Assembly: GCA_001644045.1 (NCBI GenBank)
Contig: LUUF01000019.1
Span: 62,001-126,000, forward strand
DNA: 64,000 nt
Source: Methylomonas methanica
Lineage (GTDB): Bacteria; Pseudomonadota; Gammaproteobacteria; Methylococcales; Methylomonadaceae
Direction: 5' to 3'
The notes under the pieces were generated by a model. The model ran no database searches, was not told the origin of the DNA, and saw only the letters and a list, made by a program, of their open reading frames with translations. The first letter of the stretch is position 1. The number at the start of each line of letters is the position of its first letter. Below are positions 10,254 to 39,807 of this stretch, one piece after another. The translations under genes and the position numbers were made by a program.

Positions 10254-10284
10254 GGAAATTCAATACTGAAATAATGTGTTAGCG

Positions 10285-11473: not shown

Positions 11474-11496
11474 CGCATAAATCCCAACCACTATCC

Positions 11497-12689: not shown

Positions 12690-12740
12690 GAGAACAGACG
12701 CACAGTTTTGGGTCAAAAATAATAACAATAAAGAAATCAT

Positions 12741-14560: not shown

Positions 14561-14576
14561 TGGCGTGTTTATTGCT
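14561..14576 (+). promoter_or_regulatory. sigma-54 promoter match upstream of ntrB
   Basis: TGGCGTGTTTATTGCT matches the -24/-12 consensus TGGCAYRNNNNTTGCW at 11 of 12 constrained positions, with exact GG-N10-GC spacing. The start of transcription would be near 14587, and ntrB starts at 14612. A perfect 12-bp palindrome GAGCTATAGCTC (14549-14560) abuts it, and the NtrC-like half site TGCACCA lies about 95 bp upstream at 14462-14468. Autoregulated sigma-54 transcription of ntrBC is well known in enteric bacteria. Confidence 0.65.
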
Positions 14577-14611: not shown

Positions 14612-15667
14612 GTGCATAAGAAGATACTCGATCACTTAAACGAAGCAATCCTGCTGTTCGACAAGGATTTGCGCCTGACTTATATCAATCCGGCCGGCGA
14701 AATGCTACTCGCTGACAGCGCCAAGCATTTGCTTGGCCAATCCGCCCACAAATTGTTCAAAACCGCGCATAACACCTTGTTTAACGATTTGTTGCCGCGC
14801 TTATATCTGCTGGAACCCCTGGTCGATAGAGAACTAATCCTAGAGCGGTTAAGCCAATCGATTACGGTTAACCTCAGCGCCACGCCGTTACTGGAAGACG
14901 GGAAATTAAGCGAAATCCTAATCGAACTGCAACAGGTGGACCGGCATCTACGCATTACCAAGGAAGAGCAATTGCTGGCTCAGCAAAATACCAGCCGCAT
15001 GCTGGTGCGCGGCTTGGCTCATGAAATTAAAAACCCGCTGGGAGGGCTGCGCGGCGCGGCGCAGCTGCTGGATCTGGAATTGCAGGATCCTGAATTAAAG
15101 GAATATACGCAAATCATTATCGCCGAATCCGACCGCCTGCAGGATCTGATGGACAAGATGCTCGGCCCGAACAAACCCGCGCATAAAAGCCAGCTGAATA
15201 TTCACGAGGTGTTGGAACGCGTCAGGCATCTGGTCACGGTGGAAGCCGCCCACGGCATCATGCTGCATACCAATTACGACCCGAGCATCCCGGAAATTTT
15301 CGCCGACAAAAATCAGCTGATCCAGGCCATTCTGAATATCGTCCGCAATGCGGTACAGGCCGTGCAGAACCACGGCGTGATCACCATCAAAACCCGTGTG
15401 CAACGCCATATGACCATAGGTCGCAAACGTTACAAACTGACCGTAAAAATCGACATTATCGATAACGGTCCGGGCATCAAACCCGAACTGATGGGACAAA
15501 TTTTTTATCCGATGATCACCGGCCGCGCCGAGGGCACCGGACTTGGCTTGTCTATTGCTCAATCCTTAATCAACCAACACAACGGCTTGATCGAATGCGA
15601 GAGCGAGCCGGGCAACACCGTATTTTCCATCTACCTACCTTTGGAGACGAATCATGCAAATACCTGA
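14612..15667 (+). CDS. ntrB: nitrogen regulation sensor histidine kinase NtrB (GlnL)
   Basis: Cytoplasmic kinase/phosphatase of NtrC, controlled by PII. The 351 residues contain an N-terminal PAS domain (HLNEAILLFDKDLRLTYINPAGEMLL, residues 6-31), the dimerisation/phosphoacceptor helix GLAHEIKNPLGGLRGAAQLL with His137, an N box (NIVRNAVQAV near 245), and G boxes DIIDNGPGI and GTGLGLSIA. No membrane segment is present. The start is GTG at 14612, giving the usual short N-terminus. Its last 14 bases overlap ntrC, so the two are translationally coupled. Confidence 0.95.
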   Translation: MHKKILDHLNEAILLFDKDLRLTYINPAGEMLLADSAKHLLGQSAHKLFKTAHNTLFNDLLPRLYLLEPLVDRELILERLSQSITVNLSATPLLEDGKLSEILIELQQVDRHLRITKEEQLLAQQNTSRMLVRGLAHEIKNPLGGLRGAAQLLDLELQDPELKEYTQIIIAESDRLQDLMDKMLGPNKPAHKSQLNIHEVLERVRHLVTVEAAHGIMLHTNYDPSIPEIFADKNQLIQAILNIVRNAVQAVQNHGVITIKTRVQRHMTIGRKRYKLTVKIDIIDNGPGIKPELMGQIFYPMITGRAEGTGLGLSIAQSLINQHNGLIECESEPGNTVFSIYLPLETNHANT

Positions 15668-17075
15668 CAAGGTCTGGATTGTCGATGATGACAAATCCAT
15701 CCGCTGGGTACTTGAGAAAGCCTTGCAAAAAGCCGGCGTGAATACGCAAAGCTTCGCCAATGCCAACGAACTGCTCAAATCCTTGCCCGGCGGCTTGCCG
15801 CAAGTGCTGATCACCGATATTCGGATGCCGGGCATGGACGGCTTCGAGTTGCTTCGCAATATTCAAAACAGTTATCCGGATTTACCGGTGATCGTGATGA
15901 CCGCGCATTCCGACCTGGAAAGCGCGGTTTCGGCGTTTCATGGCGGAGCCTTCGAATACCTGCCCAAACCCTTCGACGTCACCGAAGTTGTCGAAACCGT
16001 GCAACGCGCCTGCGCGCATAGCAAACAACGGCAAAGCGACCTTGTGCAAGCTCCACCTACCGTGGAGGAAACACCGGAAATCATCGGCGAAGCGCCTGCC
16101 ATGCAGGAAGTGTTTCGGGCCATAGGCCGTCTGGCGCGCTCGCACATCACCGTGCTGATTAACGGCGAATCGGGCACCGGCAAGGAACTGGTCGCCAAGG
16201 CCCTGCATCGCCACAGTCCACGCGCCGAGCAGCCGTTCATTGCCTTGAATATGGCCGCGATCCCCAGGGATTTGATGGAATCGGAATTGTTCGGCCATGA
16301 AAAAGGCGCGTTTACCGGCGCCCAGGCCAGACGAATCGGCCGTTTCGAACAAGCTAACAACGGTACGCTGTTTCTGGACGAGATCGGCGACATGCCGGCC
16401 GAACTGCAAACCCGCTTGCTGCGCGTATTGGCGGACAACGAGTTTTATCCGGTCGGCGCTCACACTTCGGTAAGAGTGAACGTCCGCATCATCGCCGCCA
16501 CCCATCAGGACCTGGAAGCGCTGGTGGCGCAGGGCCGGTTTCGCGAAGATTTGTTTCATCGCCTGAACGTGATTCGGATTCATATCCCGCCGTTGCGCGA
16601 ACGCCGCCAGGACATAGGTTTATTGATGCGGCATTATCTGTATCAAAGCGCAAAAGAATTGAATACCGAAATCAAACTTTTAAAACCCGAAACCGAGGCA
16701 TTTTTGAGCGGTTTGAAGTGGCCGGGCAATGTGCGGCAATTGGAAAATATCTGCCGTTGGCTGACGGTGATGGCCTCCGGACGAGAAATTCATCTGGAAG
16801 ATTTACCGCCGGAACTGACCCACAATACCGCCGATTCCGGATTGGCTGACAATACCCCCGGAGATTGGGAAAGCCAATTTAAAAACTGGGTCAAGCAACA
16901 ATTGACGACCGGTAAAGTGGACATCGCCAAGCAAGCCATCCCCACCTTGGAAACGCTGCTGATCGAGGCTGCGTTGAATCACACGCATGGCCGAAAACAC
17001 GAAGCGGCACTATTGCTAGGCTATGGCCGTAACACCTTGACCCGCAAAATCAAGGAGCTGGATATTAAGGAATAA
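15654..17075 (+). CDS. ntrC: nitrogen regulation response regulator NtrC (GlnG)
   Basis: Sigma-54 enhancer-binding activator of nitrogen genes. Of 473 residues, the receiver domain covers 5-120 with phosphoacceptor Asp55 (LITDIRMPG), followed by the AAA+ domain with Walker A GESGTGKE near 172, the sigma-54 contact loop GAFTGA near 220, and FLDEIGDMP. The C-terminal Fis-type helix-turn-helix (AALLLGYGRNTLTRKIKEL) is the NtrC-specific form. It is overlapped by ntrB. The same protein could act at the other sigma-54 promoters in this window, though that is inference. Confidence 0.96.
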   Translation: MQIPDKVWIVDDDKSIRWVLEKALQKAGVNTQSFANANELLKSLPGGLPQVLITDIRMPGMDGFELLRNIQNSYPDLPVIVMTAHSDLESAVSAFHGGAFEYLPKPFDVTEVVETVQRACAHSKQRQSDLVQAPPTVEETPEIIGEAPAMQEVFRAIGRLARSHITVLINGESGTGKELVAKALHRHSPRAEQPFIALNMAAIPRDLMESELFGHEKGAFTGAQARRIGRFEQANNGTLFLDEIGDMPAELQTRLLRVLADNEFYPVGAHTSVRVNVRIIAATHQDLEALVAQGRFREDLFHRLNVIRIHIPPLRERRQDIGLLMRHYLYQSAKELNTEIKLLKPETEAFLSGLKWPGNVRQLENICRWLTVMASGREIHLEDLPPELTHNTADSGLADNTPGDWESQFKNWVKQQLTTGKVDIAKQAIPTLETLLIEAALNHTHGRKHEAALLLGYGRNTLTRKIKELDIKE

Positions 17076-21758: not shown

Positions 21759-23639
21759 CTATAAAACCGCGCCTCGCAGCTCTACCGGCCGCCCCATGCA
21801 AAGCCTCAAATAAACCCGAGCTATGGCGATGCCGTTGATCACGAAGGACACGGTGATCGGTGCGGCAAACCAGGGATGTTGACTGCTTGCGTGCGACAAT
21901 AGCAAATCCTCACCCAGAAATGCCGGCGTAATCGGAAAGCCGACCAAACCCAAAAAGCTCAAAAACAACATCAGCGACCAACCAGGGCGGGTCTCGGCGA
22001 AGGCGCGAAACACGAAAGGTTCATCGGCAAAATTGTAATGCCTCAGCAACACGCTCAGTGCCCAGATACCCAAGGCCCATGAGGGAATGATACCGCTGAA
22101 GAATAAGGCCACATCCGGCCAGGCTGAAGGCACCATCAACCAAACCGCAACACCGGCCAAGATACTGCTCAAGGCCACGCTATGCCAAACCTGGAACGGG
22201 CTGTGCTTGTTGCTGAATGCGCTCAAGGACACCACGGCCATCGCCAGCGAGACCGGCATGGACAGATAAATTCTAGCCACGCTGCTGACGCCGGACGCGG
22301 CAATGGCGATGATAACTAACATGGCCAGACCCGCTAAAATTTTGACCCACAGGCTCACCGCGTTCAGTTGCCGACCCACGTTTTTCAGCGGCTCCCACAA
22401 AATCTTCTTCACCAACAACTCCAACTGCCCTTCCTGCAACGCAAACACATACAAGGTGTTTTGCAAGACATCCGGCAGGGAGTTGCGAATCGACGCCGGT
22501 AAAAATGTCAGTTGTTCGTTGTTTTTGATGTAAAAATCGCTATCAACATTGCCTTCCACTCGCAACAGATGCGCGACGATGGACGGCGACACCAGCAATT
22601 GGTAGCACCGTAAAAACGCATTGCCCATGAAGTGCAGCAGCACCAGACCTTCCAGGCCCAATGCCAATTCGACGAACATAATTCCTACCTGAGCGATGGA
22701 GGCATAAGCCACCTGCCCTTTGATGTTGGATTGGGTCTTCTCGGCCAGGGTGGCGACAAACACCGTCAACACGCCAATACTCAGCACGATCAGGCGCGGC
22801 AGATAGTGATAACTCCAGATCGGCATCGTCCGCAACAATAGAAAGACTCCTAGATGAATGGATAAGGCGCCATAGAATATCGCGCTGGAAGGTGTCGGCC
22901 CTTCCATTGCTCTAGGTAGCCAAAAACTAAACGGAAACTGCGCCGACTTACCCGAGGCCGCCAAGATAATCAGCCAGGATAAAATCGACAAAGACGCATA
23001 GCCGGCTGGTGGAATGCTGTGCGCGTCGAACATGGCCAACAACTGGCTAAAATGCTGACTTTCGTGAAACAGCAAATGGCTCATCCAGGTACCGACCAGC
23101 AAGCCCACATCGCAAAAGCGGTAAATGGTGTAGGCGCGTAAGGCATTGCGCACCGGTTGCGGCCGATGCCGGTAAAAGGCGATCAGCAAAAACGAAGATA
23201 TCCCGACAATTTCCCAGCCGGCAAACAGCATATCGATACTGCCTGACAACACGATCAGGTTCAGGCCGAACGCAAAGCCGAAAATAGCTTGAAAAAAACG
23301 CTTATAGCCGGCTTCGCGATGCAGATAGACCCGGCAATATTTAACAATCGCCGAAAATACCGCCCACACCACGAACAAATAAGCGGCGCCGACCCTATCC
23401 AGAAAGAACAGTAAAGGGAACTGGTAATCGTCGTGCTGATATAACACCAGCCACTGGTATTCGAAGTTGGCAAAACCCTGGGCAGCCCATGCAGCCAGCA
23501 GACCCAACACCGCGACACCCTTGAGCCTGGTCATCCACAGACTGATCGCTGCAATTCTATGTTCGTTGTCCGGGCTGAAAAAAATCAGCAAAAAGCCGAT
23601 TAACGGCAATAACACGCATGCCAATAATAAAATACTCAT
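21759..23639 (-). CDS. dabB: DabB: NuoL/Mrp-like membrane subunit of the DAB inorganic-carbon pump
   Basis: Proton-conducting partner of DabA. In DAB complexes, the NuoL-like subunit is thought to couple the proton motive force to CO2 hydration by DabA, so that bicarbonate accumulates in the cell. The 626 residues are almost entirely membrane helices, with the antiporter-family core GWEIVGISSFLLIAFY and SAQFPFSFWLPRAMEGPTPS (NuoL: WLPDAMAGPTPVSA). A soluble stretch near 380-410 interrupts the helices. It begins 4 bp inside the dabA end (ATGA-type overlap), which means translational coupling. It is longer than many described DabB proteins. The pairing with DUF2309 makes this call far more likely than a NADH dehydrogenase subunit. 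Confidence 0.9.
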   Translation of the reverse strand: MSILLLACVLLPLIGFLLIFFSPDNEHRIAAISLWMTRLKGVAVLGLLAAWAAQGFANFEYQWLVLYQHDDYQFPLLFFLDRVGAAYLFVVWAVFSAIVKYCRVYLHREAGYKRFFQAIFGFAFGLNLIVLSGSIDMLFAGWEIVGISSFLLIAFYRHRPQPVRNALRAYTIYRFCDVGLLVGTWMSHLLFHESQHFSQLLAMFDAHSIPPAGYASLSILSWLIILAASGKSAQFPFSFWLPRAMEGPTPSSAIFYGALSIHLGVFLLLRTMPIWSYHYLPRLIVLSIGVLTVFVATLAEKTQSNIKGQVAYASIAQVGIMFVELALGLEGLVLLHFMGNAFLRCYQLLVSPSIVAHLLRVEGNVDSDFYIKNNEQLTFLPASIRNSLPDVLQNTLYVFALQEGQLELLVKKILWEPLKNVGRQLNAVSLWVKILAGLAMLVIIAIAASGVSSVARIYLSMPVSLAMAVVSLSAFSNKHSPFQVWHSVALSSILAGVAVWLMVPSAWPDVALFFSGIIPSWALGIWALSVLLRHYNFADEPFVFRAFAETRPGWSLMLFLSFLGLVGFPITPAFLGEDLLLSHASSQHPWFAAPITVSFVINGIAIARVYLRLCMGRPVELRGAVL

Positions 23640-26209
23640 CCATGTCTCCTTTCCAATTCATGCACCGGAATGGTCCGGGTTTGTCCGACGATAATTTTCT
23701 CTGAGCGGCTGCAAACCGGCAACGGCCTACCACTGGCGGGTTCGGCAACGTTCCAGCCCTTGCTGCTATATAAATACAATTCGCGGCTCACCGGATCGCA
23801 GGCCACCAGGCGTATCCATTCGTTATCCAGCCATTCCCGCAAGCCGCCCAGCACCGCAATCGCCTGATCGGCAATCGCGGTGCTTTGTTCCACCACCATC
23901 AGCAAACGCGCCGGCTCATGCACCTCTATCATTTGCGACGGCAAGCCGGTGCGCAAATCTCCCTCCACGCCGTTGGCCACGCCCAACAAGCCGATCACGT
24001 TGTGCGGCAGCTTGGTGCCGGCACCGTAGACCGAGTTATCGATGCGCGAAAATAGATACTCCAGATTGATACCGCCGCAAACCGGAATCACCGCCGACAA
24101 CACCTTGACCAATATCGAGCCGTCGTGGTCGCTATTGGGATCGTACGATTGCAAAAACGCCCGCCGATCCATGAATAAATGCCGGGTTAAGCCGCGCCGC
24201 CCGACTACGCAATACAAATTATTGGAATGATTCAATTCCGGGCGCGGCTCGAAAATCGACGACGCCCGCGCCACCACATGCCGATGCGCTTCTTCGTTTT
24301 TATGCGATTTCGGCCCCAACTCGAACCAACGGCAGCGCTCGCGCGCATTGCGCTGCAAGGCATGCTGCATGCTGTGTTGGAAACTGTGCAGTTCGTGGCG
24401 CGCGGCTTTATCCAGTTCCTGTTGATCAAAGTAAGTGATCTCGTCGCGGCTGGTATTGTGCAAAGCCGGCACAAAATGGGTACTGTCGGGAATATCTATA
24501 CCCCGTTCACGCAAAATCTCTCGTACCTGCGGATGGTTGGCCATCCAGGCAAAAGCCCGCGCATTGGGCGCACCCGGCTTACCGGAGCAAGCACCGCAGT
24601 CGTAAGCGGCGAAATGCGGATTGTTGACGCTGCTGGAACCATGCGCCACCACCACGACCAACGGCGCAAACTGCTTAGTCAGCCCGATATTACGCAGCAA
24701 GCCACCCACCCGATCTGCCATTTCCGTCAACGAAAACCCCAGCAGATAGCCGTCTTCGTTGAGTTCATCGCTCTCGCGCAACAGATGCAAATGGCTGTGG
24801 GCTTCCACTTCGCTCAAACTTTGGATACCCGGTAACTGGCCACCGGGGCGCAATACGCTCCATCCCAAGCGCAACGCATATGCCAGACCCAGCGTTTGCG
24901 TGTACAACCAACCGCGCAGCATGGAATGCGCGCCAAAATGCATGGTCGACAGCGATTCGCCCTTATCGGATTTGTCGGACTGCGGCGTATCGGTCGACTC
25001 CAGAATCAAATGTTTGGGTTTAATCACCACCGGACATTGCGCCACCGGATATACATCGTCCAGACCTTGATACAGAAAATCGATACCAAAAAATCCCGGT
25101 GCGCCGAAGGTTTCGATACCCGAATCCATTTCTTCCAGGTAACGCCGTAGCGAACATTCTCTATCGTCGATGCAAAACAATGCCTGCACTTTGGGAGCAT
25201 GTCCGGTTGCCTGGTCAAGAGGGGCTTGCTCGCGCAAGGCCAACAACAACTCGGAATGCAGCGACCACTCCATCGCCTCGTGCCACACGCGCATTTTCAA
25301 AGGCACTTGCGGCTTGGTCGCATCCCGCTCTAATAACGGAATGGCGTGTAAATTGGGCAGTTGCGCGATCTGTAAAAAACGGTGCCCGTACTTTTTATCG
25401 ATAAACGCCAGCTCGCAAGCCAGTTCCACTGCAAGCAATTCTTTCAACGAAATAGCTCGGGGCGCCAACAGCACATTGGGCTGGGTTTCGATAATCCGTA
25501 CCATCCCGGACCAACCGGGATGCGCCAGCAATACCTCCAACAGATATTGCCCGTACAAGGTTTCATCGCCGACGATCTTGGCCAGGCAATTCAAAATCAC
25601 CTGATCAGGGCCGGCATCCAGCATTTGCCTTACAACGGGCTGATGAAACGGATACAAAGGTAATAGGCTGTTTTGCACCAGTCGCAACACGCAATCCCAA
25701 AAGCGCTCGTCCGGTTTCGGCATCGCCCAACGGCTAATGCCTTGATCGAGAAAATTACTCAACAACCGGAACATCACCGGATGCACCATACCGTTCAAGT
25801 CGATTTCCAGGTGATTTAGCCAGGCGCTACGGATACCGTGGTTAGCCAAGGACTGCGGCGGATAATGACTGTGACCGTCGGGCTCAAACAAAGAAGACCG
25901 CAATGACTCCTCTTGATAGACACTGCAATTAGCCTGCGCAATCGCCCATTCCAGCGCCTGATCACTGATGCGGCCCTCGTTATACCGCTTCAGATAATCG
26001 GCCAGGGGCAAATAACTTTTGGCGCCATATACCTGAGCCGCCACCGCCACCCCTTCGTGAAACGGATAGTCCTGCACGGCGTGCAAGGTATTATGATGAA
26101 TAAAATCCTTGATCGGTCCCTGGCTGGGCAGCCAATGGGCAATGTGGTCGATAGCCACATCCAGATCGAAAGCATCGTTGTGAACATTGTGATGGGTGGG
26201 AGCAGACAT
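23636..26209 (-). CDS. dabA: DabA: zinc-dependent inorganic-carbon transporter subunit (DUF2309)
   Basis: Peripheral, beta-carbonic-anhydrase-like subunit of the DAB system. The 857-residue protein carries the four expected zinc/active-site residues: Cys346 and Asp348 in LFCIDDREC, His523 in VAHGSSSVNNP and Cys538 in AAYDCGACSG, closely matching the positions known for the Halothiobacillus protein. GWSVLRPGG and an RDEITYFDQQELDKA-like segment also belong to the family. It is the first gene of the dabA-dabB unit, read leftward from a sigma-54 promoter match at 26272-26287, with GAGG about 12 bases before the ATG. Confidence 0.95.
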   Translation of the reverse strand: MSAPTHHNVHNDAFDLDVAIDHIAHWLPSQGPIKDFIHHNTLHAVQDYPFHEGVAVAAQVYGAKSYLPLADYLKRYNEGRISDQALEWAIAQANCSVYQEESLRSSLFEPDGHSHYPPQSLANHGIRSAWLNHLEIDLNGMVHPVMFRLLSNFLDQGISRWAMPKPDERFWDCVLRLVQNSLLPLYPFHQPVVRQMLDAGPDQVILNCLAKIVGDETLYGQYLLEVLLAHPGWSGMVRIIETQPNVLLAPRAISLKELLAVELACELAFIDKKYGHRFLQIAQLPNLHAIPLLERDATKPQVPLKMRVWHEAMEWSLHSELLLALREQAPLDQATGHAPKVQALFCIDDRECSLRRYLEEMDSGIETFGAPGFFGIDFLYQGLDDVYPVAQCPVVIKPKHLILESTDTPQSDKSDKGESLSTMHFGAHSMLRGWLYTQTLGLAYALRLGWSVLRPGGQLPGIQSLSEVEAHSHLHLLRESDELNEDGYLLGFSLTEMADRVGGLLRNIGLTKQFAPLVVVVAHGSSSVNNPHFAAYDCGACSGKPGAPNARAFAWMANHPQVREILRERGIDIPDSTHFVPALHNTSRDEITYFDQQELDKAARHELHSFQHSMQHALQRNARERCRWFELGPKSHKNEEAHRHVVARASSIFEPRPELNHSNNLYCVVGRRGLTRHLFMDRRAFLQSYDPNSDHDGSILVKVLSAVIPVCGGINLEYLFSRIDNSVYGAGTKLPHNVIGLLGVANGVEGDLRTGLPSQMIEVHEPARLLMVVEQSTAIADQAIAVLGGLREWLDNEWIRLVACDPVSRELYLYSSKGWNVAEPASGRPLPVCSRSEKIIVGQTRTIPVHELERRHG

Positions 26210-26271
26210 CTGTAACTTAAACCTCGCTAGTCAAACAGAAGTTGAGGCAAACAGCCTCTTACGCTTAGCAC

Positions 26272-26287
26272 TGCATAGTGCGTGCCA
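26272..26287 (-). promoter_or_regulatory. sigma-54 promoter match for dabA-dabB
   Basis: Read on the minus strand the site is TGGCACGCACTATGCA: 11 of 12 constrained positions of TGGCAYRNNNNTTGCW, with exact GG-N10-GC spacing. Transcription would begin near 26261, about 50 bases before the dabA ATG. The mismatch is A for T in the -12 box. Confidence 0.6.
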
Positions 26288-26372
26288 AATCCCGAAACCC
26301 TGGCATAGCACCGTTTCCAGCTTATTGTTCAAATTCCAAGCCAAGCGACATCGGTGCAAATAAACCACCCAA

Positions 26373-26398
26373 CTGGTTGAACCTGACGAATCAACCAG
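26373..26398. promoter_or_regulatory. perfect inverted repeat midway between divergent sigma-54 promoters
   Basis: CTGGTTGA and TCAACCAG are perfect 8-bp inverted arms separated by ACCTGACGAA. The centre (26385.5) is about 99 bp from each facing promoter element (26287 and 26485), the distance and symmetry expected for an enhancer bound by a sigma-54 activator serving both directions. The protein that binds is unknown. The remainder of the 326-bp dabA-sulP gap shows no other gene. Confidence 0.55.
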
Positions 26399-26484
26399 GC
26401 CAGCAAATCAAATCTACAACAATTTTAAGGCTAGCCACTGCCACAACCCTTGATATACCTACACTGCCGCGATTCTTGCAAAAT

Positions 26485-26500
26485 TGGCATGTTTCTCGCT
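26485..26500 (+). promoter_or_regulatory. sigma-54 promoter match for the sulP gene
   Basis: TGGCATGTTTCTCGCT fits TGGCAYRNNNNTTGCW at 11 of 12 constrained positions, with GG-N10-GC spacing; the mismatch is C for T in the -12 box. The start of transcription would be near 26511, 25 bases before the chosen ATG at 26536, which also supports that start over the upstream in-frame GTG. Confidence 0.6.
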
Positions 26501-26535
26501 GTACTTTGGTTTTCCTAGGCTTCTTGAGAAAAACC

Positions 26536-28182
26536 ATGACCTCATCAACTCCAGTCATCCTGCCAAAGACCGGGCTCTCCGGTTTGATTGAAAACTGGCG
26601 CAGCGATCTGCTATCCGGTTTTTTAGTGTTTTTGATCGCCCTTCCGCTCTGCCTGGGCATAGCCATGGCATCGGGTTTCCCGCCCATGTCCGGCATCATT
26701 ACCGCAATCATCGGCGGCGTGGTGGTTTCCAGAATCAATGGTTCATATGTCACGATCAACGGCCCGGCCGCCGGCTTGATCGTGGTTATCGTCGATGCGG
26801 TGCAATCCTTGGGACAAGGCGATGCGATGGCCGGTTATCGATATACGCTGGCCGCCATCGTGATAGCCAGCGTCTTGCAAGTACTGCTGGGCGTGTTTAA
26901 GGCCGGCAAACTGAGCGCCTTTTTTCCCTCATCGGTCGTACACGGCATGTTGGCAGCCATCGGCATCATCATCATGGCCAAACAGATTCATACCCTGCTG
27001 GGCGTAAAACCGGCGGCTAAATCGCTGTTGGGCACCATCGCCGAGATTCCGCATTCGCTGATGGAAATGAATCCGGAAGTCTCGCTGATAGGCTTGCTAG
27101 GTTTGTTGCTATTGACACTTTGGTCGGTGATCAAACATCCCACCTTGAAAATGATCCCGGCCCCCCTGTTGGTGGTGTTGCTGGGTCTGGCCTTGGGACA
27201 GTATTTTGATTTGGATCATATTCATCAATACATGTTCCTGCCGGACGCGGCAATTCTGCCGCACCACGAATTCAGCGTCGGCCCTTCATTTCTGGTGGCG
27301 GTGCCCGAACATTTTCTGGCCGGGTTTTATCTGCCCGATTTTTCCAAAATCGCCACCGGCGAATTCTGGCTGGCGGTATTGACCATCTGGCTGGTCGGTA
27401 GCCTGGAAAGTTTGTTAAGCGCATCGGCAGTCGACAAGCTAGACCCGTACAAACGCAACTCCAACCTGAACCGCGACTTGACCGCCGTCGGCATCGGCAA
27501 CATGGTCGCCGGCATGATCGGCGGCTTGCCTATGATCGCCGAAATCGTCCGTAGCTCCGCCAACATCAACAACGGCGCAAAAACCGGCTGGTCCAACTTC
27601 TTTCACGGCTTGTTTTTACTGGTGTTTGTCGCGCTGTTCCCCAAACTGATACACGAAATCCCGCTATCGGCCTTGGCGGCATTATTGGTATTCACCGGTT
27701 TCCGTCTGGCCTCGCCGAAAGAATTTGCGAAAACCCTGGCGGTGGGTCTTGACCATTTCGCGGTGTTCGTGATCACCATCCTGGGCGTACTGGCAACCGA
27801 TTTGCTGGTCGGCGTGGCAATCGGCATCGCGGTTGAATTGGCGATTCACGTCAGCCGTGGCTTGAAACTGCGTAACGCGTTTTCTATGGCTTTTCACGTG
27901 CGCCAAACCGATGCCGATACCCACCATATCGAAGTATCCGGCGCGGCGGTATTCTCCAACTTCATCACGCTAAAAAGCTTGTTGGCCGATTTTCCGGAAC
28001 GCAAAACCGTGTTTTTCGACCTTACCGAAGCCGACCTGATCGACCATACGGTGATGGAATTCATCCACCATTTTGCCGAAGACTACAACCATGCCGGCGG
28101 CCGTTGCCAAATTGTCGGCCTGGACGATCACGAAAGTTATTCCGACCACCATCTCTCTGCTCGCCGCAAAATTGCGCTCTGA
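26536..28182 (+). CDS. SulP-family anion/bicarbonate transporter with STAS domain
   Basis: Inner-membrane SLC26/SulP transporter of 548 residues. It has the N-terminal core (SDLLSGFLVFLIALPLCLGIAMASG; GPAAGLIVVIVDAV), about 12-14 helices to residue 430, and a C-terminal cytoplasmic STAS domain (HHIEVSGAAVFSNFITLK, KTVFFDLTEADLIDHTVMEFI). SulP proteins beside dabA/carbonic anhydrase genes are usually assigned to bicarbonate uptake, so bicarbonate (BicA-like) is more likely than sulfate. ATG 26536 follows GAGAAAAACC; the frame extends 86 codons upstream to 26278, but that part crosses the promoter and looks noncoding. Confidence 0.88.
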   Translation: MTSSTPVILPKTGLSGLIENWRSDLLSGFLVFLIALPLCLGIAMASGFPPMSGIITAIIGGVVVSRINGSYVTINGPAAGLIVVIVDAVQSLGQGDAMAGYRYTLAAIVIASVLQVLLGVFKAGKLSAFFPSSVVHGMLAAIGIIIMAKQIHTLLGVKPAAKSLLGTIAEIPHSLMEMNPEVSLIGLLGLLLLTLWSVIKHPTLKMIPAPLLVVLLGLALGQYFDLDHIHQYMFLPDAAILPHHEFSVGPSFLVAVPEHFLAGFYLPDFSKIATGEFWLAVLTIWLVGSLESLLSASAVDKLDPYKRNSNLNRDLTAVGIGNMVAGMIGGLPMIAEIVRSSANINNGAKTGWSNFFHGLFLLVFVALFPKLIHEIPLSALAALLVFTGFRLASPKEFAKTLAVGLDHFAVFVITILGVLATDLLVGVAIGIAVELAIHVSRGLKLRNAFSMAFHVRQTDADTHHIEVSGAAVFSNFITLKSLLADFPERKTVFFDLTEADLIDHTVMEFIHHFAEDYNHAGGRCQIVGLDDHESYSDHHLSARRKIAL

Positions 28183-28334: not shown

Positions 28335-29054
28335 ATGCACAAGCTATCTCGAAAAATATTTTGTTTGCCGTTTTTAGGCTGCCTATCGCTAACAGCAATG
28401 TCTGCCGACGTAGCGGCCGACGATCTGACGGAAGATTCCGGCGCCTGGTTGCAAGCCGTTGGCGAAGGCAGCATGAGCTTCATCGATCCGAGCTTGAAAA
28501 ACGGCCGGGTCTGGGTAGAAGGCCAATCGCGCTTCGATGGCGACTGGGGCCATTGGTACCAAGGCATGGTCCGCACCGCGGTGGGTTATTCCTTGAGCGA
28601 CCGCGCCACAATCTGGGCCGGTTATACCTGGCTGCCGACCCAAAACATCGGCAAATCTTATGTCTCCCAGCAAGATATTTGGCCGGCGTTTCGCTATGTG
28701 TTGCCCACGGAGATAGGCACTTTTACGTTCCGCACCATGTGGGAAACCAACTTTCTGAACGGCGACCAGTTGCGCGAACGCCCCCGGCAAATGATCAAAT
28801 TCATGCACCCGCTCGAGTTCGAACCGCGCTTGAGCCTGATCGCCTGGGATGAAGCTTTTTACCGGGTCAATTCCACCACCTTTGGCGGCAAATCCGGATT
28901 TGACCAAAACCGGGCGTTTGCCGGTTTCGGCTGGAGCTTCAACAAAAACGTTAGAACCGAACTGGGCTATATGAACCAATATGTCGAAAACGCCAATCAC
29001 AGTGCAGCGACGATGCGGCATTTGGGTATGGCATCGGTGTTTGTTAATTTCTAA
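28335..29054 (+). CDS. DUF2490-type outer-membrane protein
   Basis: A 239-residue secreted protein. The signal peptide (MHKLSRKIFCLPFLGCLSLTAMS) is followed by a beta-strand pattern with alternating aromatic residues, and it ends in VFVNF, a C-terminal Phe typical of outer-membrane barrels. Motifs GRVWVEGQSRFDGDWGHWYQGMVRTAVGYSL and FRTMWETNF fit the DUF2490 family (about 220 residues). ATG 28335 has GGGGAAA upstream. Its place within the carbon island suggests an outer-membrane pore or assembly role for that system, which is inference only. Confidence 0.75.
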   Translation: MHKLSRKIFCLPFLGCLSLTAMSADVAADDLTEDSGAWLQAVGEGSMSFIDPSLKNGRVWVEGQSRFDGDWGHWYQGMVRTAVGYSLSDRATIWAGYTWLPTQNIGKSYVSQQDIWPAFRYVLPTEIGTFTFRTMWETNFLNGDQLRERPRQMIKFMHPLEFEPRLSLIAWDEAFYRVNSTTFGGKSGFDQNRAFAGFGWSFNKNVRTELGYMNQYVENANHSAATMRHLGMASVFVNF

Positions 29055-29780: not shown

Positions 29781-30584
29781 ATGGTTTCAAATCGTGCCAT
29801 GAACCAAAACTTTACGCTGCTCGCCTGTTTGACCATTTTCAGTCAGGTATTAAACCCCACGGAAGCATTCGCGGCCGACGGCCATGCCGACCCGCATTGG
29901 ACTTACGAGGAACAGGAAAGCTGGGGCGAATTAAAGGACCAACTCTACAAACCGCCTTTTCCGTACGCGGAATGCGGCATCGGCCAGAAGCAATCGCCGG
30001 TAAACATCGAACCGGGTAGCACCGTAAGAGTCGAAAAGATTGACGAGCTGCAACCCAATTATATGGAAATACCGCTGAGTCTGACCAATAACGGCCACAC
30101 CATCAGAGCCAACACCAGCAGAGGCAAGTTAAACTTCGGCAATAACGAATACGATTTGGTGCAATTTCATTTTCATGCGCCCAGCGAGCACTTGCTGAAC
30201 GGCGTGGCCTATCCGCTGGAGATTCATTTTGTCAACGGTACCGCCGACGGCCGGATGGCGGTGCTGGGCGTGTTGGTGAAAGCCGGCGCACACAACCCGG
30301 CATTCCAGGAAATTCTTGAGCAATCGCCCAAGCACATTGGTGACACCAGCAATCCGCCGCTGATGATCCGCCCGGCGCGTTTGCTGCCGGAACATACCCA
30401 ACATTTCTATACCTATGCCGGCTCGCTAACCACCCCGCCCTGCAGCGAAGGTGTGCAATGGTTTGTCCTGCAGGATATTTTGGAAGTATCGGAACAGCAA
30501 ATTAGAGACTTCAACAGCAAGTTCTACCATGACAACGCCCGCGCCGAACAGAAACTAAACGGCCGGGTATTGGACGCCCATTAG
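29781..30584 (+). CDS. periplasmic alpha-carbonic anhydrase
   Basis: Interconverts CO2 and bicarbonate in the periplasm. The 267-residue protein has an N-terminal signal (ending near AFAADG) and complete alpha-class features: GIGQKQSPVNIEP, the zinc histidines at 130, 132 and 149 (FHFHAPSEH and EIHFVN), and YAGSLTTPPCSEGVQWFVL near 213-231 holding the substrate-pocket Thr. The cysteine pair (AECGIG, PPCSEG) should form the usual disulfide. Start at 29781 or the Met at 29799. It closes the inorganic-carbon island and could supply bicarbonate or CO2 to the SulP and DAB systems. Confidence 0.95.
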   Translation: MVSNRAMNQNFTLLACLTIFSQVLNPTEAFAADGHADPHWTYEEQESWGELKDQLYKPPFPYAECGIGQKQSPVNIEPGSTVRVEKIDELQPNYMEIPLSLTNNGHTIRANTSRGKLNFGNNEYDLVQFHFHAPSEHLLNGVAYPLEIHFVNGTADGRMAVLGVLVKAGAHNPAFQEILEQSPKHIGDTSNPPLMIRPARLLPEHTQHFYTYAGSLTTPPCSEGVQWFVLQDILEVSEQQIRDFNSKFYHDNARAEQKLNGRVLDAH

Positions 30585-33661: not shown

Positions 33662-33677
33662 TGGTTTAAATAAACCA
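33662..33677. promoter_or_regulatory. palindrome upstream of the metal-efflux operon, candidate activator site
   Basis: TGGTTTA and TAAACCA are perfect inverted arms around AA, about 100 bp upstream of the sigma-54 promoter match at 33774. That is a usual enhancer distance. A second perfect palindrome, GCCGAA-TT-TTCGGC, lies at 33737-33750. Confidence 0.4.
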
Positions 33678-33736
33678 AATTTGTTCTAAATAACCGTTAG
33701 CCTAAGCACCTTTAACTGGCGATAAGGTTGAAATAA

Positions 33737-33750
33737 GCCGAATTTTCGGC
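33737..33750. promoter_or_regulatory. second palindrome upstream of the metal-efflux operon
   Basis: GCCGAATTTTCGGC is a perfect 14-bp palindrome ending 24 bp before the -24 element at 33774. It could be a repressor site or the binding site of a metal sensor. Confidence 0.35.
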
Positions 33751-33773
33751 ATTTATCAAGCGCGCGGGCATCT

Positions 33774-33789
33774 TGGCAGGCTAATTGCT
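33774..33789 (+). promoter_or_regulatory. sigma-54 promoter match for the czcCBA operon
   Basis: TGGCAGGCTAATTGCT matches TGGCAYRNNNNTTGCW at 11 of 12 constrained positions (G for Y at position 6), with a perfect TTGC -12 box and GG-N10-GC spacing. Transcription would start near 33800, 38 bases before the first ATG of the operon. Confidence 0.65.
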
Positions 33790-33837
33790 TTTAGTGGTTA
33801 CCAACCACGTTCAATAGCGCGACTGCGGTGATAAACC

Positions 33838-35187
33838 ATGCAAAACAAACGTTTCATCTATAGCGCTGCGCTCGGCTTGTTGGGGTCTATGCTGACTTTT
33901 CAGGCTTACGCGCAAAACGTCCCCTTATCCATCGACGAGGCCCTGGCGATTTTTTACCAGCGCAATCTCGATCTGATCGCCGCCCAATACAATATCGACC
34001 AGTCCCGCGCCGACGCGCTGATCGCCGCGGCGATCCCCAATCCGACGCTGGGCGTGCAGATTTCCGAGTTAAGCAATCGGCCCAACATGGGTTCCAACGC
34101 CAGCGGTTGTAATCACGATGCCGGCGTCTCCTGCGGCCCGGCCGAATATTTTTCCTTTAGTCAGTTGATCGAAGTCGCCGGCAAACGCGGCCTGCGCATG
34201 CAAAGCAGCGGATTCGCCACCCAGGCGGCGGAAAGCGATTTCCGCGATGCGGTGCGAATCTTTTCCAATATGGTTCGAGACGCCTACTACGACCTGCTGC
34301 TGGCACAAAAAAACCGCTGGCTGGCCCAAGAAATTGTCGATCATTACCAAACCATTTCCAAAGCCAACCAACTCAGGATGAACAGCGGCGACATCGCCGA
34401 ATCGGATTTTCTGCGGGTAAAAATGGAAGCGATGCGCGCACAATCCGATCTGGATACCGCACAAACCGCGGTGGAACAGGCGCAAGCCGGTTTGGCGGTG
34501 ATCTTGCGCTGGCCGAGTGACGGTCTGCATTTCGAAGCCAGGGAACAATGGCCGGACGCCAAGGACATCGGTCAAAACCTGTCCAAAGACGAATTGATGA
34601 ACAAAGCCCTGCAACAACGTCCGGATCTACTGGCCGACAAACAACGCGCCGCCCAAGCCGAAAAAGAACTGGAATTGGCCAGACGCCTGAAATATCCGGA
34701 CGTGACCGTCAATGCCGGCTATGCGCGCGACCCCAGCAACAACGCACTCAATTCATTTTTCGTCGGCGTCAGCGTGCCGGTGCCGCTGTTTAACCAATAC
34801 CAGGGCGAATCGGACAAGGCGGCGGTTGCGTTAAACCAGAACCAGCTGGCGGTCGAGCAAACCGAACTGGGCATTCGCAACGACGTCACCAATGCCTTAG
34901 CCACCTGGAATAGCGCGGATAAAATCGTGCAGCGCTTCCAAAGCGGCTTGCTCGACGATGCGCTGGCGGTGCGCAACAGCGCCGATCTGGCGTACAGCAA
35001 GGGCGCTACCGGCGTGCTGGATTTTATCGAGGCGCAACGCAGCTATAAAAATGTGATGCGCGATTACAGCCAGGCCATGATCAGCCGCGCCAACGCGTAT
35101 TACGATCTGGCCAAAGCCCTGGGCGAGGAAGTTGGTAACGACAACGCTGCCACCCACAAGGCTCACGAGCAAGCCCAATTGCCATAG
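33838..35187 (+). CDS. czcC: outer-membrane channel of heavy-metal efflux (TolC/CzcC family)
   Basis: Outer-membrane factor of a tripartite RND pump. The 449 residues start with a signal peptide (to AYAQ at about residue 26), followed by the two OEP repeats. LSIDEALAIFYQRNLDLIAAQYNIDQSRADALIAAAIPNPTLGVQ-type sequence begins repeat one, and LMNKALQQRPDLLADKQRA begins repeat two near 255, each ending in long coiled helices. AEYFSFSQLIEVAGKR is typical of CzcC/CusC. It is the first gene of the operon; the adaptor gene begins 22 bp after its stop. Confidence 0.9.
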   Translation: MQNKRFIYSAALGLLGSMLTFQAYAQNVPLSIDEALAIFYQRNLDLIAAQYNIDQSRADALIAAAIPNPTLGVQISELSNRPNMGSNASGCNHDAGVSCGPAEYFSFSQLIEVAGKRGLRMQSSGFATQAAESDFRDAVRIFSNMVRDAYYDLLLAQKNRWLAQEIVDHYQTISKANQLRMNSGDIAESDFLRVKMEAMRAQSDLDTAQTAVEQAQAGLAVILRWPSDGLHFEAREQWPDAKDIGQNLSKDELMNKALQQRPDLLADKQRAAQAEKELELARRLKYPDVTVNAGYARDPSNNALNSFFVGVSVPVPLFNQYQGESDKAAVALNQNQLAVEQTELGIRNDVTNALATWNSADKIVQRFQSGLLDDALAVRNSADLAYSKGATGVLDFIEAQRSYKNVMRDYSQAMISRANAYYDLAKALGEEVGNDNAATHKAHEQAQLP

Positions 35188-35209
35188 CAAACTTGAACAA
35201 CTAATCGAC

Positions 35210-36379
35210 ATGAATGTACCTATGCAATCTCTCGCCAAAACACCGCTGCTCTGCTGTTACCTGCTGGCTGCCGGAATAATAACGGCTTGTTCCGACTCGA
35301 CCGACAAGACGCCAGTACCACCCAAACCACCAACGCCCGCCGGCGAAGTGATCCTGGCGCCCGATTCGCCGAAAAAAGCCTATGTCAAAACCGCCAAGCT
35401 GAGCTTGGCACAACATCCCTTGCTGGAACCCTTGGCCGGCAAAGTCGTGTATGACGAAAGCCTGACCTCGCGCATCAGCTCACCGGTTGCCGGCCGGGTC
35501 GTTGCCACACCTGTTGCGCTGGGTACGCCGGTTCAAGCGGGTTCGACTCTATTGGAATTGGACAGCCCGGATGTCGCCGATGCGGAAGCCGATTTCGCCA
35601 AGGCGCAAGCCGCAGCAACATTGGCCGGCCATGCCTTCAATCGCCAACAAGAGCTATACGCCGGCAAAGCCATTTCCCGCAAGGAACTGGAACAAGCGCA
35701 AAGTGATTTGAGCAGCGCCCGTAGCGATCTGCAACGCGCTACGGACCGTTTAAAAAACCTGCACTTGTCCGCCCGCCAAGCCGATGGCCGCTTCGCGTTG
35801 CGCGCCACGGTGCCCGGCGTGGTAGTGGAACGTAACGTCAATCCGGGCATGGAAGTACGGCCGGACCTGGATACGCCTCTGTATGTGGTCTCCGATCTGA
35901 AGCACTTGACGGTATTGCTGGAGGTGTTCGAAGTCAACATCGGCAAAATCAAGTTAGGACAACAGGTGTCCGTCTCGGTGCCGGCCTATCCCGGCCAGAC
36001 CTTTCCAGCGACGGTGCAATACATCGGCCAGGTACTCGACGAAACCACCCGCACCGTGCAAGTACGTTGCAAACTGGATAATCCGGATGGCAGCCTGATG
36101 CCGGGCATGTACGCCACCATCACGGTAGAAAGCGCGGCGGACGACAAGGCATTCGTGATTCCGCTGACAGCGGTGTTTACCGAAGGCGATGCCGATTATG
36201 TGTTCATCGCCTTGGACGATAACCGCTACCGACAACGCAAGGCCGATATCGGCTTGCGTTTGAAAGACAAGGCGATCGTCACGCAAGGCCTGGAAGCTAA
36301 CGAGCTGCTGGTGACTGAAGGTGCGTTGATGCTGCGCGCCGAAGAAGAAGTCGAAACCGAAAGTAATAACCAGCCCTAG
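35210..36379 (+). CDS. czcB: periplasmic adaptor of heavy-metal RND efflux (CzcB family)
   Basis: Membrane-fusion protein linking the RND pump to the outer-membrane channel. The lipobox AAGIITAC near residues 20-27 marks a lipid-anchored N-terminus; a short Pro-rich linker follows (KTPVPPKPPTP). The lipoyl domain (ISSPVAGRVVATPVALGTPVQAGSTLLELDSPD), the alpha-hairpin (residues 145-195) and the beta-barrel (VVERNVNPGMEVRPDLDTPLYVVSDL) are in normal order. Start could be 35210 or the Met at 35222; the frame further upstream overlaps czcC and is rejected. It is followed 21 bp later by the pump gene. Confidence 0.9.
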   Translation: MNVPMQSLAKTPLLCCYLLAAGIITACSDSTDKTPVPPKPPTPAGEVILAPDSPKKAYVKTAKLSLAQHPLLEPLAGKVVYDESLTSRISSPVAGRVVATPVALGTPVQAGSTLLELDSPDVADAEADFAKAQAAATLAGHAFNRQQELYAGKAISRKELEQAQSDLSSARSDLQRATDRLKNLHLSARQADGRFALRATVPGVVVERNVNPGMEVRPDLDTPLYVVSDLKHLTVLLEVFEVNIGKIKLGQQVSVSVPAYPGQTFPATVQYIGQVLDETTRTVQVRCKLDNPDGSLMPGMYATITVESAADDKAFVIPLTAVFTEGDADYVFIALDDNRYRQRKADIGLRLKDKAIVTQGLEANELLVTEGALMLRAEEEVETESNNQP

Positions 36380-36400
36380 CGCCATACCCAGGACACTGAC

Positions 36401-39400
36401 ATGATCGAGCGTCTTATCGCGTTTTGTTTACAGCAACGGCTGATGGTAATCGGCGCCACGTTGGCGATTGCCGTTTCCGGTATCATCGCCTTCGAAAACC
36501 TGCCGGTCCAGGCCTTTCCGGACGTACAAAACGTCTTTGTACAAGTCGTGACTCAATTTCCCGGCCAGGCACCGGAAGAAGTGGAAAAGCAAATCTCCCT
36601 GCCTATCGAACGGGAAATGAACGGCTTGCCGCATTTGATGAATATGCGTTCGGTATCGATTTTCGGCCTGTCGGTGGTGACGCTGACTTTCGACGACAAG
36701 GCCGAGGATTATTTCTCCCGCCAGCAAGTCCTGGAGCGCCTGCAATACGCCGATATTCCCAGCGAGACCAAACCGCAACTCGGGCCGCTATCCACCGGTG
36801 TCGGCGAGATCTTGCGCTATGTGATCGATGCGAAAAACTTACCCTTAGTGGAGCAACGCGCGTTGCAGGATTGGATCATCGAGCCGCGCTTGCGCTCGGT
36901 ACAGGGCGTAGCGGACGTGGTCGGTTTCGGCGGCGGGGTGAAGGAATATAAAGTCGCCGCCAAGCCGGATCGCCTAAAAAACTATCGCATCGACCTCAAC
37001 CAAGTATTCCAGGCCATCGCCGCCAACAACACCAACACCGGCGGCGGCTATATCGAACATGGCGACGAAGCCTTAGTGGTGCGCGGTACCGGTTTACTGA
37101 AATCCGCCGACGAAATCGGCGAAATCGTGATCACCACCAACGACGGGGTGCCGGTGCGGATCAAGGATGTCGCAGACATCAGCGTAGGGCCACAACCCCG
37201 TAACGGCATGGTAGGCATGAATCAACACGACGATGTAGTGGAAGGCATTGTGTTGTTGATCAAGGGCCGCGACGCAGTCAATGTGCTGGACGGCGTGAAA
37301 CAGAAAATCAAGGAGCTCAACGACTTCGGCTTGCCGCCCGGCGTAAAAATCACGCCGTTCTACGACCGAACCGAGCTGGTGGGACATACCATTCATACCG
37401 TCGAGCACAATATGATAGAAGGCGCGGTATTGATCCTGATTATCCTTCTGGTGTTTTTGCGGCGCTTTGTAGCTGCCCTGCTGGTCACGCTGATTATTCC
37501 GCTATCATTACTGTTTGCTTTTATCCTGGTGGATCTCGGCGGCATTTCCGCCAATCTGATTTCGCTGGGCGCCATCGACTTCGGCATCATTGTCGACGGC
37601 GCTGTGGTACTGGTCGAAGCCGTGATGGTGCAAGTCACGCTGGATTTACAACACAATGCCGATATGCGGCATCTGCGGCAATCGCTGCTCACCACCGCCA
37701 AGGAAATGGGCCGGCCCATCCTGTTTTCCAAAGCCATCATCATCATCGCCTTTTTGCCGATTTTTACCTTCCAGCGCGTGGAAGCCAAAATCTTTTCGCC
37801 GATGGCCTATACCCTGAGTTTTGCGCTAGTGGCTTCCATGCTGTTCAGCCTAACCTTTGTGCCGGCCATGCTGACTTATTTGCTGGGTCCGAAACTCGCC
37901 GAGCAACACAATCCGCTGGTGCACGCGATGGAACACCATTACCGGCGGACGCTGGAATGGGTGTTACGGCATGCACGGGCCGTATTCATAGCGGCAATCA
38001 CCGCGCTGGTGCTCAGCTTCATGTCCGTAAAACTGATAGGCACCGAATTCATGCCCAAGCTCGACGAAGGCAATATCTGGCTGACCATTACTTTGCCGAC
38101 GCCGGTATCGCTGAGCACTGCCAAACAACTGGAACGGCAGGTCCGCGAAACGCTGGAAACCTTTTCGGAAGCCAACACCATCATCACCCAACTGGGTCGC
38201 CCGGAAGACGGCACCGACCCCAAAGGCTTTAATAATCTGGAAGTGCTGATCGATCTGAAACCCAAGGATACCTGGCGTTACAAGCGCAAAGACGATCTGG
38301 TGCAGGCCATGGACAAGGCACTGGCAATCTTTCCGGGCATACTCACCAACTTTTCCCAGGTGATTCAGGACAACGTCGAAGAGGCCATTTCCGGCGTGAA
38401 AGGCGAAATCGCCATTAAAATCTTCGGCAGCGATTTGCAAACCTTGCAGGACAGGGCCGATCAAGTCACGCATATTCTGGCCGGCATTCAGGGCGCCACC
38501 GACGTCGCCGCCGAGCAGCAAGCCGGCCTGGCGCAAGTGATTGTCGACATCGACCGGGCCAAAGTGTCGCGCTATGGCATCAATGTCGCCGATGTGGAGC
38601 GGGTGATGGAAATCGGCATGGGCGGCAAGGCGGCCTCGCAGTTTCTGGAAGGCGAACGCCGTTTCGACATCACCCTGCGTTACGAAGACAGCGCCCGTAA
38701 TTCGGTAGCCAATCTGGAAAATCTGACGGTGCAAACTCCAAGCGGCCAACGCATTCCGCTAGCCGAGCTGGCCACCATCAAAATCAATCAAGGCGCGTCC
38801 CGCATCAGCCGCGAAGACAATATGCGGCGCATCGCGATCAAATGTAATCTGATCGACCGCGACCAGGGCAGCTTCGTCGCCGAAGCCCAGCAAAAAGTCG
38901 CGGCACAAGTCGATTTACCGCCCGGTTATCACATCGTCTGGAGCGGCCAGTTCGAAAACCAGCAACGGGCGATGAAGCGGCTGGCCGTCATCGTGCCCAT
39001 CAGCCTGGGCCTGATTTTTGTACTGTTGTTCTGGGCTTTCATGTCGATTAAAAATGCCTTATTGATCGTGATGAACGTGCCGTTCGCGATGATAGGCGGC
39101 TTGCTGATTCTGTTGGCTACCGGCATTAACCTGAGCGTGTCGGCTGCGGTCGGCTTCATTGCCCTGTTCGGGATTGCCGTGCAAAATGGGGTGATTTTGG
39201 TTTCGCAATTGAACAAGCTGCGCCGCGACGGCCAAAAATTGCACGACGCCATCGTCAACGGCTCGGTGAGTCGCTTGCGGCCGGTGGTGATGACGGCTTT
39301 GATGGCGATGCTGGGTTTGTTTCCGGCCGCGCTGTCGACCAGCGTCGGCTCCGAAACCGCCAAGCCGTTTGCGATCGTGATTATCGGCGGCCTGATCACC

Positions 39401-39469: not shown

Positions 39470-39478
39470 AGGATTACC

Positions 39479-39805
39479 ATGAAAGAAATTCGCGCTTATG
39501 TGCAACCGCACAAGCTTAGCCAGATTACGATGGCTTTGATGGAGATCCCGGGCTTTCCGGGCATGTCGATAGTCGATTGCGAAGGCTTCGGCCGCGAACG
39601 CACGGAACACGTTCAGGATTACAAACCGTTTCTGGCCCGCAAACGCCTGGAGATCTTTGCGCCGGACGAGCTGGTGGACATCATTTTCGAAACCATCATG
39701 CGCACCGCCCGCAGCGGGCATCATGGCGACGGCAAGGTTTACATCATCGACGCGCACGAAGGCGGCCGCATCAGTAGCGGCGAGCGGGATAAGGATTTGG
39801 GCTGA
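39479..39805 (+). CDS. non-canonical PII-family regulator linked to metal efflux (PII-NG type)
   Basis: A 108-residue PII-like protein. The core is recognisable (MKEIRAYVQPHKLSQITMALMEIPGFPGMSI at the start; RKRLEIFAPDELVDIIFETIMRTARSGHHGDGKVYI near 56-90). The T-loop is changed: the uridylylated Tyr region is replaced by GRERTEHVQDYKPFLA, and the B-loop GKxGDGKI is SGHHGDGKV. A divergent PII group encoded next to CzcA/CusA-type pumps has been described, and this gene fits it. It sits 9 bp after czcA, so it is likely a small trimeric modulator of the pump; ligand unknown. Confidence 0.85.
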   Translation: MKEIRAYVQPHKLSQITMALMEIPGFPGMSIVDCEGFGRERTEHVQDYKPFLARKRLEIFAPDELVDIIFETIMRTARSGHHGDGKVYIIDAHEGGRISSGERDKDLG

Positions 39806-39807
39806 CC

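Follow-up and report, generated by a model that had tools for sequence, protein, structure and literature searches.

A candidate bidirectional sigma-54 control region between the dabA and sulP genes of Methylomonas methanica

Sigma-54 is better known for nitrogen control. The closest described systems include NtrBC, AtoSC and ZraSR, in which a histidine kinase is paired with a regulator of Response_reg-AAA-Fis architecture and the enhancers lie upstream of -24/-12 promoters. CbrAB of Pseudomonas, a sigma-54 pair linked to carbon, has a small RNA (sRNA), CrcZ, that depends on sigma-54 and is encoded beside the regulator gene. The DIC transporters of chemolithoautotrophs are under LysR-type control, and the regulation of DAB systems elsewhere is mostly attributed to LysR-type proteins. 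To our knowledge, inorganic-carbon sensing and the control of CO2/bicarbonate uptake in non-photosynthetic bacteria are poorly known. Methanotrophs, which are used industrially, need CO2 besides methane.

The systems considered here include a DabA/DabB CO2-hydrating complex, like the DAB2 of chemolithoautotrophs as presented in the sections consulted of PMC13144422; that paper reports the DAB2 structure, its regulation passages in those sections deal with enzyme gating and cloning and not with native transcription, and no mention of LysR, promoter or methanotroph was found there. In the same partial sense, PMC12628692 describes low-DIC induction of transporters in Thiomicrospira, and the terms sigma, two-component, LysR and NtrC do not occur in the part consulted. 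For Methylosinus, PMC12403871, in the part consulted, reports that nitrogen genes are preceded by RpoN motifs, and neither bicarbonate nor carbonic anhydrase occurs there. In PMC2621215, also consulted in part, hydrogenase, formate, nif and pilus genes are connected with sigma-54, and a PTS-RpoN cascade is put forward, as speculation, for the response to low fixed carbon; a bicarbonate transporter is named there only in the reference list. A literature search with thin coverage of subscription journals found no paper joining sigma-54 with DAB.

We consider it probable that a bidirectional sigma-54 region, turned on by the regulator encoded at 49406-50800 (the 49406 regulator), governs dabAB and sulP together. 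The sequences show the promoter elements and the enhancer pair, together with how these are conserved and oriented; they also show that rpoN is present and that the regulator is associated with the locus at the genome level. The locus shares with NtrBC, AtoSC and ZraSR the kinase, the Response_reg-AAA-Fis regulator and an enhancer upstream of -24/-12 elements, but has its own enhancer motif and inorganic-carbon target genes. Like CbrAB/CrcZ, it combines a carbon-linked sigma-54 pair with an adjoining candidate sRNA; unlike CrcZ, this candidate is transcribed convergently to the regulator gene, might be driven by the 49406 regulator or by NtrC, and matches no Rfam family at gathering cut-offs. 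DAB and SulP-type targets are shared with the LysR-controlled DIC transporters, with sigma-54 promoters and an NtrC-type regulator here instead. What the analysis offers for methanotrophs is a kinase-regulator pair as candidate, together with an exact motif and a target gene set; if the proposal is true, inorganic carbon joins the processes run by sigma-54.

The DNA analysed (the window) is 64,000 nt long, and corresponds to positions 62,001-126,000 on the forward strand of LUUF01000019.1 from Methylomonas methanica GCA_001644045.1. This was the one genome checked for pmoA, which it contains above cut-off, and the organism is therefore a methanotroph. Family searches covered 237 genomes of the same family. 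The dabA sample comprises 84 loci out of 83 of these genomes; it does not include G176, and contig-edge starts and partial genes were excluded (for example G083, G087, G005, G010, G012 and G057). Removal of L072 and L078, which have too little upstream sequence, left 82 usable loci, 31 with a divergent sulP and 51 without. The loci are related by descent, so that the counts given below are not independent. The list of genomes with the regulator, the assignment of loci to genomes and the distances used for linkage were compiled by hand. Sigma-54 elements were scored against TGGCAYR-N4-TTGCW, with 12 constrained positions, which we take to be the consensus.

The dabA-sulP region and its promoter elements

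The gap between dabA and sulP is 326 bp long. The flanking genes and the promoter-associated features are as follows.

21759-23639, minus strand: dabB-like membrane partner (Proton_antipo_M PF00361, 122 bits), overlapping the end of dabA
23636-26209, minus strand: dabA (Pfam DabA PF10070, 773 bits)
26272-26287, minus strand: sigma-54 element toward dabA, TGGCACGCACTATGCA (TGGCACG-N4-ATGCA, 11/12)
26449-26456: CTTGATAT block, invariant in nine genomes, between the enhancer and the sulP promoter
26485-26500, plus strand: sigma-54 element toward sulP, TGGCATGTTTCTCGCT (TGGCATG-N4-TCGCT, 11/12)
26536-28182, plus strand: sulP, SulP-family anion transporter (Pfam sulfate-permease family)
28335-29054, plus strand: DUF2490 protein, downstream of sulP
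29781-30584, plus strand: carbonic anhydrase (PF00194), downstream of sulP

The match to the DabA family and the adjoining NuoL/Mrp-like membrane partner identify dabAB as a DAB complex. SulP is probably a bicarbonate importer, but its substrate is a tentative assignment, since it scores 130 bits against an NCBIfam BicA cut-off of 880; it misses the sulfate permease cut-off too. A cytochrome c'-like protein gene is also found downstream of sulP. In the dabA leader there is a hairpin, GAGGC/GCCTC, at 26244-26258 on the minus strand, which becomes GAGAC/GTCTC in L006 and is broken in L011.

The original prediction placed two outward-facing sigma-54 elements in the gap, each with 11 of 12 constrained positions, and re-reading of the sequence agrees with it at both sites. 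Both have the GG-N10-GC spacing, and the genome contains rpoN (PF04552, 231 bits). Taken singly, such matches are common: the window contains seven at 11/12, compared to a mean of 3.7 in shuffled sequence, and 15 of 100 shuffles reach seven. A lone 11/12 match in 64 kb is therefore ordinary, and this is what favours a reading in which the elements are chance or relic matches and a sigma-70/LysR system is in control. We regard this reading as highly improbable. Within the gaps of the nine close loci, an 11/12 match arises in only 0-3 of 100 Markov-resampled gaps per direction, and a search of the dabA-sulP gap turned up no sigma-70-like pair. The gap is diverged, yet among the nine closest genomes the element toward dabA retains 14 of 16 invariant columns and that toward sulP 13 of 16, compared with invariant fractions of 0.23 and 0.18 in two neighbouring spacers. 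Windows of 16 columns that are equally conserved make up 4.8% (at the dabA-ward level) and 8.9% (at the sulP-ward level) of the gap, because it contains other conserved blocks. One of these is the CTTGATAT block, which on its minus strand resembles what we take to be the core of an IHF site.

The direction of the elements argues in the same way. An operon-ward element of at least 10/12 is present at 73 of the 82 dabA loci, and at 36 of them it reaches at least 11/12. For the 51 loci without a divergent sulP there are 46 matches of at least 10/12 toward the operon and one away from it, and at the stricter threshold of at least 11/12 there are 17 and none. Where dabA and sulP are divergent (31 loci), 27 have a sulP-ward element of at least 11/12, and likewise 27 a dabA-ward element of at least 10/12; both elements are at least 10/12 in 23. 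The -24/-12 elements are thus largely retained by relatives that keep the dabA-sulP arrangement, whose loss of them would have spoken against the original prediction. The ATGC form of the -12 box found in the window is common to many dabA elements.

Nine loci have sulP upstream of dabA in the same direction (a tenth, L025, has only a 24% partial match), and eight of the nine have sequence upstream of sulP. In five of these eight (L055, L064, L073, L080 and L081) a sigma-54 element of 11-12/12 precedes sulP together with enhancer copies at 1-3 mismatches, and neither an element nor an enhancer was found before dabA. The other three (L040, L041 and L082), in genomes without the proposed regulator, have neither before sulP. 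Judged from these sequences, the sigma-54 elements appear to move along with the head of the operon. Because they are conserved in relatives, we take the elements to be real rather than chance.

The enhancer motif

The widely conserved unit between the promoters is a 16-bp palindrome, TGGTTKAWWTMAACCA, which is frequently paired at an interval of 21-24 bp. In the window it is represented by two altered copies.

26352-26367: enhancer copy A, CGGTGCAAATAAACCA, 3 mismatches to TGGTTKAWWTMAACCA, with 14 of 16 columns invariant in nine genomes
26373-26398: enhancer copy B, CTGGTTGA-N10-TCAACCAG, with a variable spacer

Copy B is the inverted repeat noticed originally. The repeat is indeed present, but it is only part of the enhancer and its 24-bp form is clade-specific. 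Its TGGT begins 22 bp after copy A, it carries an extra 8 bp between the halves compared to TGGTTKAWWTMAACCA, and its left arm, TGGTTGAA at 26374-26381, is invariant at all eight positions in the nine genomes. By sequence, the enhancer of the window is a degenerate pair made up of 26352-26367 and 26374-26397. The idea of a single central activator site shared by both promoters is supported by this conserved and often paired arrangement.

The motif was derived from divergent gaps and then tried on 52 non-divergent loci that had not been used in deriving it. At up to one mismatch it occurs in 13 of these 52 loci (resampled mean 0.0), and at up to three mismatches in 34 (resampled mean 3.5, largest 7). 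Matches with at most one mismatch are found in 35 of 37 genomes of the genus, with 123 forward matches as against 26 for the reversed pattern. Within the genome of the window the corresponding numbers at up to two mismatches are 32 and 9; this search skips the site in the window itself, because copy A is 3 mismatches off and copy B is elongated. In 110 copies collected at up to three mismatches the GGT/ACC positions are nearly fixed, although such a collection itself favours these positions. The 42 spacings between neighbouring copies fall into 26 at 21-24 bp, one at 26 bp and 15 at 96 bp or more.

From the centre of the inverted repeat it is 98.5 bp to one element and 99.5 bp to the other, and the symmetry of about 99 bp that had been pointed out is thus found in the window, but it is specific to the window's clade and not general. 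An equal 99-bp spacing as a functional rule is ruled out by enhancer-promoter distances that range from 51 to 311 bp among the loci. On the sulP side the distances are suggestive of helical phasing (R 0.74 at 10.8 bp, p 0.0005, 15 unique distances). Phasing on the dabA side is weaker and has an implausible period (R 0.41 at 11.3 bp, p 0.026, 33 unique distances). Neither result is taken as proof of phasing, because the sequences are related.

The candidate activator

The window encodes a two-component pair that includes an NtrC-type regulator.

47890-49314, plus strand: histidine kinase with HisKA and HATPase_c, the probable partner of the 49406 regulator
49406-50800, plus strand: NtrC-type response regulator (Response_reg, Sigma54_activat, HTH_8), with GAFTGA present

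The regulator has the receiver, sigma-54 AAA+ domain, Fis-type HTH and GAFTGA motif of the NtrC family. It is under the cut-off of all 25 NCBIfam models shown, including AtoC (371 bits, cut-off 714), NtrC (354, cut-off 558.6) and ZraR (299, cut-off 760); it is therefore not filed as NtrC, and seems to represent a subfamily without a name. Relatives at E<=1e-90 are found in 172 of the 237 family genomes, and a second copy, 54-55% identical, occurs in G106, G108, G110 and G100. That of G106 (54% identical) is 30.7 kb from dabA.

The original prediction named both NtrC and the 49406 regulator as possible activators, and linkage to dabA was compared for these two in 20 genomes having dabA, the 49406 regulator and NtrC on one contig of at least 1.7 Mb. 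In ten of the 20 no more than 31 kb (about 3.5-30 kb) separates dabA from the best regulator copy, and in the other ten the distance exceeds 300 kb; in the window it is 23 kb. For NtrC, the distance to dabA is at most 31 kb in one of the 20 and at most 45 kb in two.

Activation by NtrC (15654-17075) from sigma-54 promoters that are themselves real would tie carbon uptake to nitrogen status. NtrC is found in 228 of the 237 family genomes, only 6.5 kb separates its gene from dabA in the window, and copy A includes a GGTGCA half-site that suits it. We nevertheless consider this explanation very unlikely, since it is disfavoured both by the rare linkage to dabA and by the scan for sites. Presuming an NtrC-type site of TGCACY-N5-RGTGCA, matches at up to one mismatch occur in two of the 82 loci, L009 and L010 (resampled mean 0.2), at up to two mismatches in 6 (mean 4.7) and at up to three in 28 (mean 29.1), the latter two numbers being no higher than chance would give, and the best site in the gap of the window has 4 mismatches. 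Furthermore, G021, G022, G124 and G171 keep NtrC, yet lack promoter and enhancer. The 49406 regulator is the better supported of the two candidates. As a separate observation, an 11/12 sigma-54-like element, TGGCGTGTTTATTGCT, is found at 14561-14576 on the plus strand, 35 bp before the start of ntrB.

The kinase-regulator pair is divergent from dabA, as its next recognised neighbour, in five of the 84 loci, all of one genus; these five gaps contain the motif, at 1-3 mismatches, as well as sigma-54-like elements facing either way that score 10-11/12. Methyloglobulus morosus KoM1 (L186, regulator 67% identical) has sulP divergent from the kinase-regulator genes, which are preceded by a relative of the DUF2490 gene; in the gap are an enhancer pair and two sigma-54 elements, which score 12/12 and 11/12. 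At L187, from a gammaproteobacterial MAG (regulator 54% identical, with no DAB within the 9-kb contig), a small frame and then the kinase and regulator genes are preceded by a perfect palindrome, together with a second copy that is visible and an element of 10/12. These are the only two of 80 loci around regulator relatives with the motif at up to one mismatch, in both cases upstream of the pair's own genes, and the reversed pattern gave no match in 1.35 Mb. In L188, L189 and L191, with regulators 52-59% identical, the motif is absent at up to two mismatches in flanks of up to 10 kb.

Promoter and enhancer are found together at 67 of 76 loci from genomes with the regulator and at one of six from genomes without it (Fisher p 4e-4, uncorrected for kinship). 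When the six regulator-less genomes were rechecked, the best matches were 35-38% identical in five, and there was none in G058, a genome that is 74% complete. Eight of the nine regulator-bearing loci that fail do so by having a best motif at 4 mismatches, and two of these, L010 and L017, still have both promoters. There are exceptions on both sides: L044 has neither promoter nor enhancer with the regulator in its genome, and G138 has the sites, with no regulator detected.

A different enhancer-binding protein could be the activator, given that the genome encodes 18 strong sigma-54 activators (PF00158), with 4 further weak matches, and that linkage was compared for two. In Methyloglobulus and in the gammaproteobacterial MAG, however, the same motif stands before the operon of the pair itself, and it is absent from most genomes that lack the 49406 regulator; this makes such an alternative distinctly unlikely. 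For the 49406 regulator we propose the following mechanism, in which the binding, the phosphorylation, the looping, the help from IHF and the signal are all inferred. RpoN-RNA polymerase would wait at the two outward -24/-12 promoters. The kinase (47890-49314) would phosphorylate the regulator, which would then bind the paired enhancer sites at 26352-26397 and loop to either promoter, possibly helped by IHF, such that dabAB, for the vectorial hydration of CO2, and sulP, for the uptake of bicarbonate, would be induced together. The signal is presumably inorganic-carbon shortage or a linked pH or membrane cue.

Possible further targets

The motif and sigma-54-like elements also occur at other genes, as listed here.

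33662-33677: perfect palindrome TGGTTTAAATAAACCA; no other 0-mismatch copy came up in the genome assembly of the window
33774-33789, plus strand: sigma-54-like element (TGGCAGG-N4-TTGCT), facing an RND efflux operon that starts at 33838
L104, 9620-9720 (also L106-L108, L111, L117, L120-L124 and L128): motif pair at a second DAB operon
50840-50925, minus strand: sRNA candidate of 86 nt with a terminator hairpin, downstream of and convergent with the regulator gene
50936-50951, minus strand: conserved sigma-54-like element facing the sRNA candidate (TGGCATC-N4-TTGCA)

We suggest tentatively, and would put it at rather below an even chance, that methanotrophs have a regulon dedicated to inorganic carbon, in which the one pair turns on DAB1 and SulP, turns down the second DAB over a sigma-70-like promoter, controls the operon with the RND, PII-like and porin genes, and drives a sigma-54-dependent sRNA.

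In the RND region (33662-41274) a PII-like protein (39479-39805) and an OprB porin are encoded behind the RND genes, and the palindrome and element before the operon are kept in two relatives, L105 and L127. Since the sole perfect site found in the genome precedes an efflux operon, and since SulP scores below both transporter cut-offs, the same circuit might answer pH, metal or anion stress instead of carbon shortage, with SulP not a bicarbonate carrier. We consider this unlikely: DabA is matched by its own family, the motif marks the second DAB operon in relatives too, and the carbonic anhydrase and the OprB porin belong to the same cluster.

The survey of other sites read L100-L103 and L105-L133, and did not include L089-L099 from the window's own genome. 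In 11 of the 29 loci of the genus (L105-L133) the motif precedes the leading gene of the second DAB operon. The alignment places the two copies about 30 bp apart beside a conserved TAGAAT-like -10 stretch, with no sigma-54 element before this operon, and on the basis of these sequences we infer that the same regulator may repress it. Divergent from the second DAB operon in L104, at 9831-12734, are genes for metallo-hydrolase-like and GGDEF-EAL-like proteins, named from their frames.

The first 35 columns of the sRNA candidate include 33 that are invariant. When the family genomes were searched with a covariance model, 19 of 237 contained it, and 17 of these belong to the same genus. The candidate adjoins the regulator in nine close genomes; weaker matches (37 and 31 bits) are 1.7 and 1.5 kb from the regulator in G134 and G125, and in G104, G106, G109, G110 and G115 a match is about 4.5 kb from ntrC. 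Covariation is modest, with one of 18 predicted pairs changing on both sides. An Rfam search of the window gave only two tRNAs at gathering cut-offs, and the candidate matched no family. The TGGTGCA half-sites upstream of the candidate would suit NtrC as well, so that either regulator may activate it. A small peptide as the product is disfavoured, because the ATG examined reads AAG in L278 and L279.

Just past the promoter of the sRNA candidate, at 51078-51608, is a frame made up of several near-identical repeats. A second RNA-like element, with the sequence GGACAAAGGCGTCCTG and a terminator, is present near position 1500 of L301-L304 (G133, G104, G106 and G125), and upstream of it are promoters of the TTGGCAT-N-TTG type and GGTGC-type half-sites.
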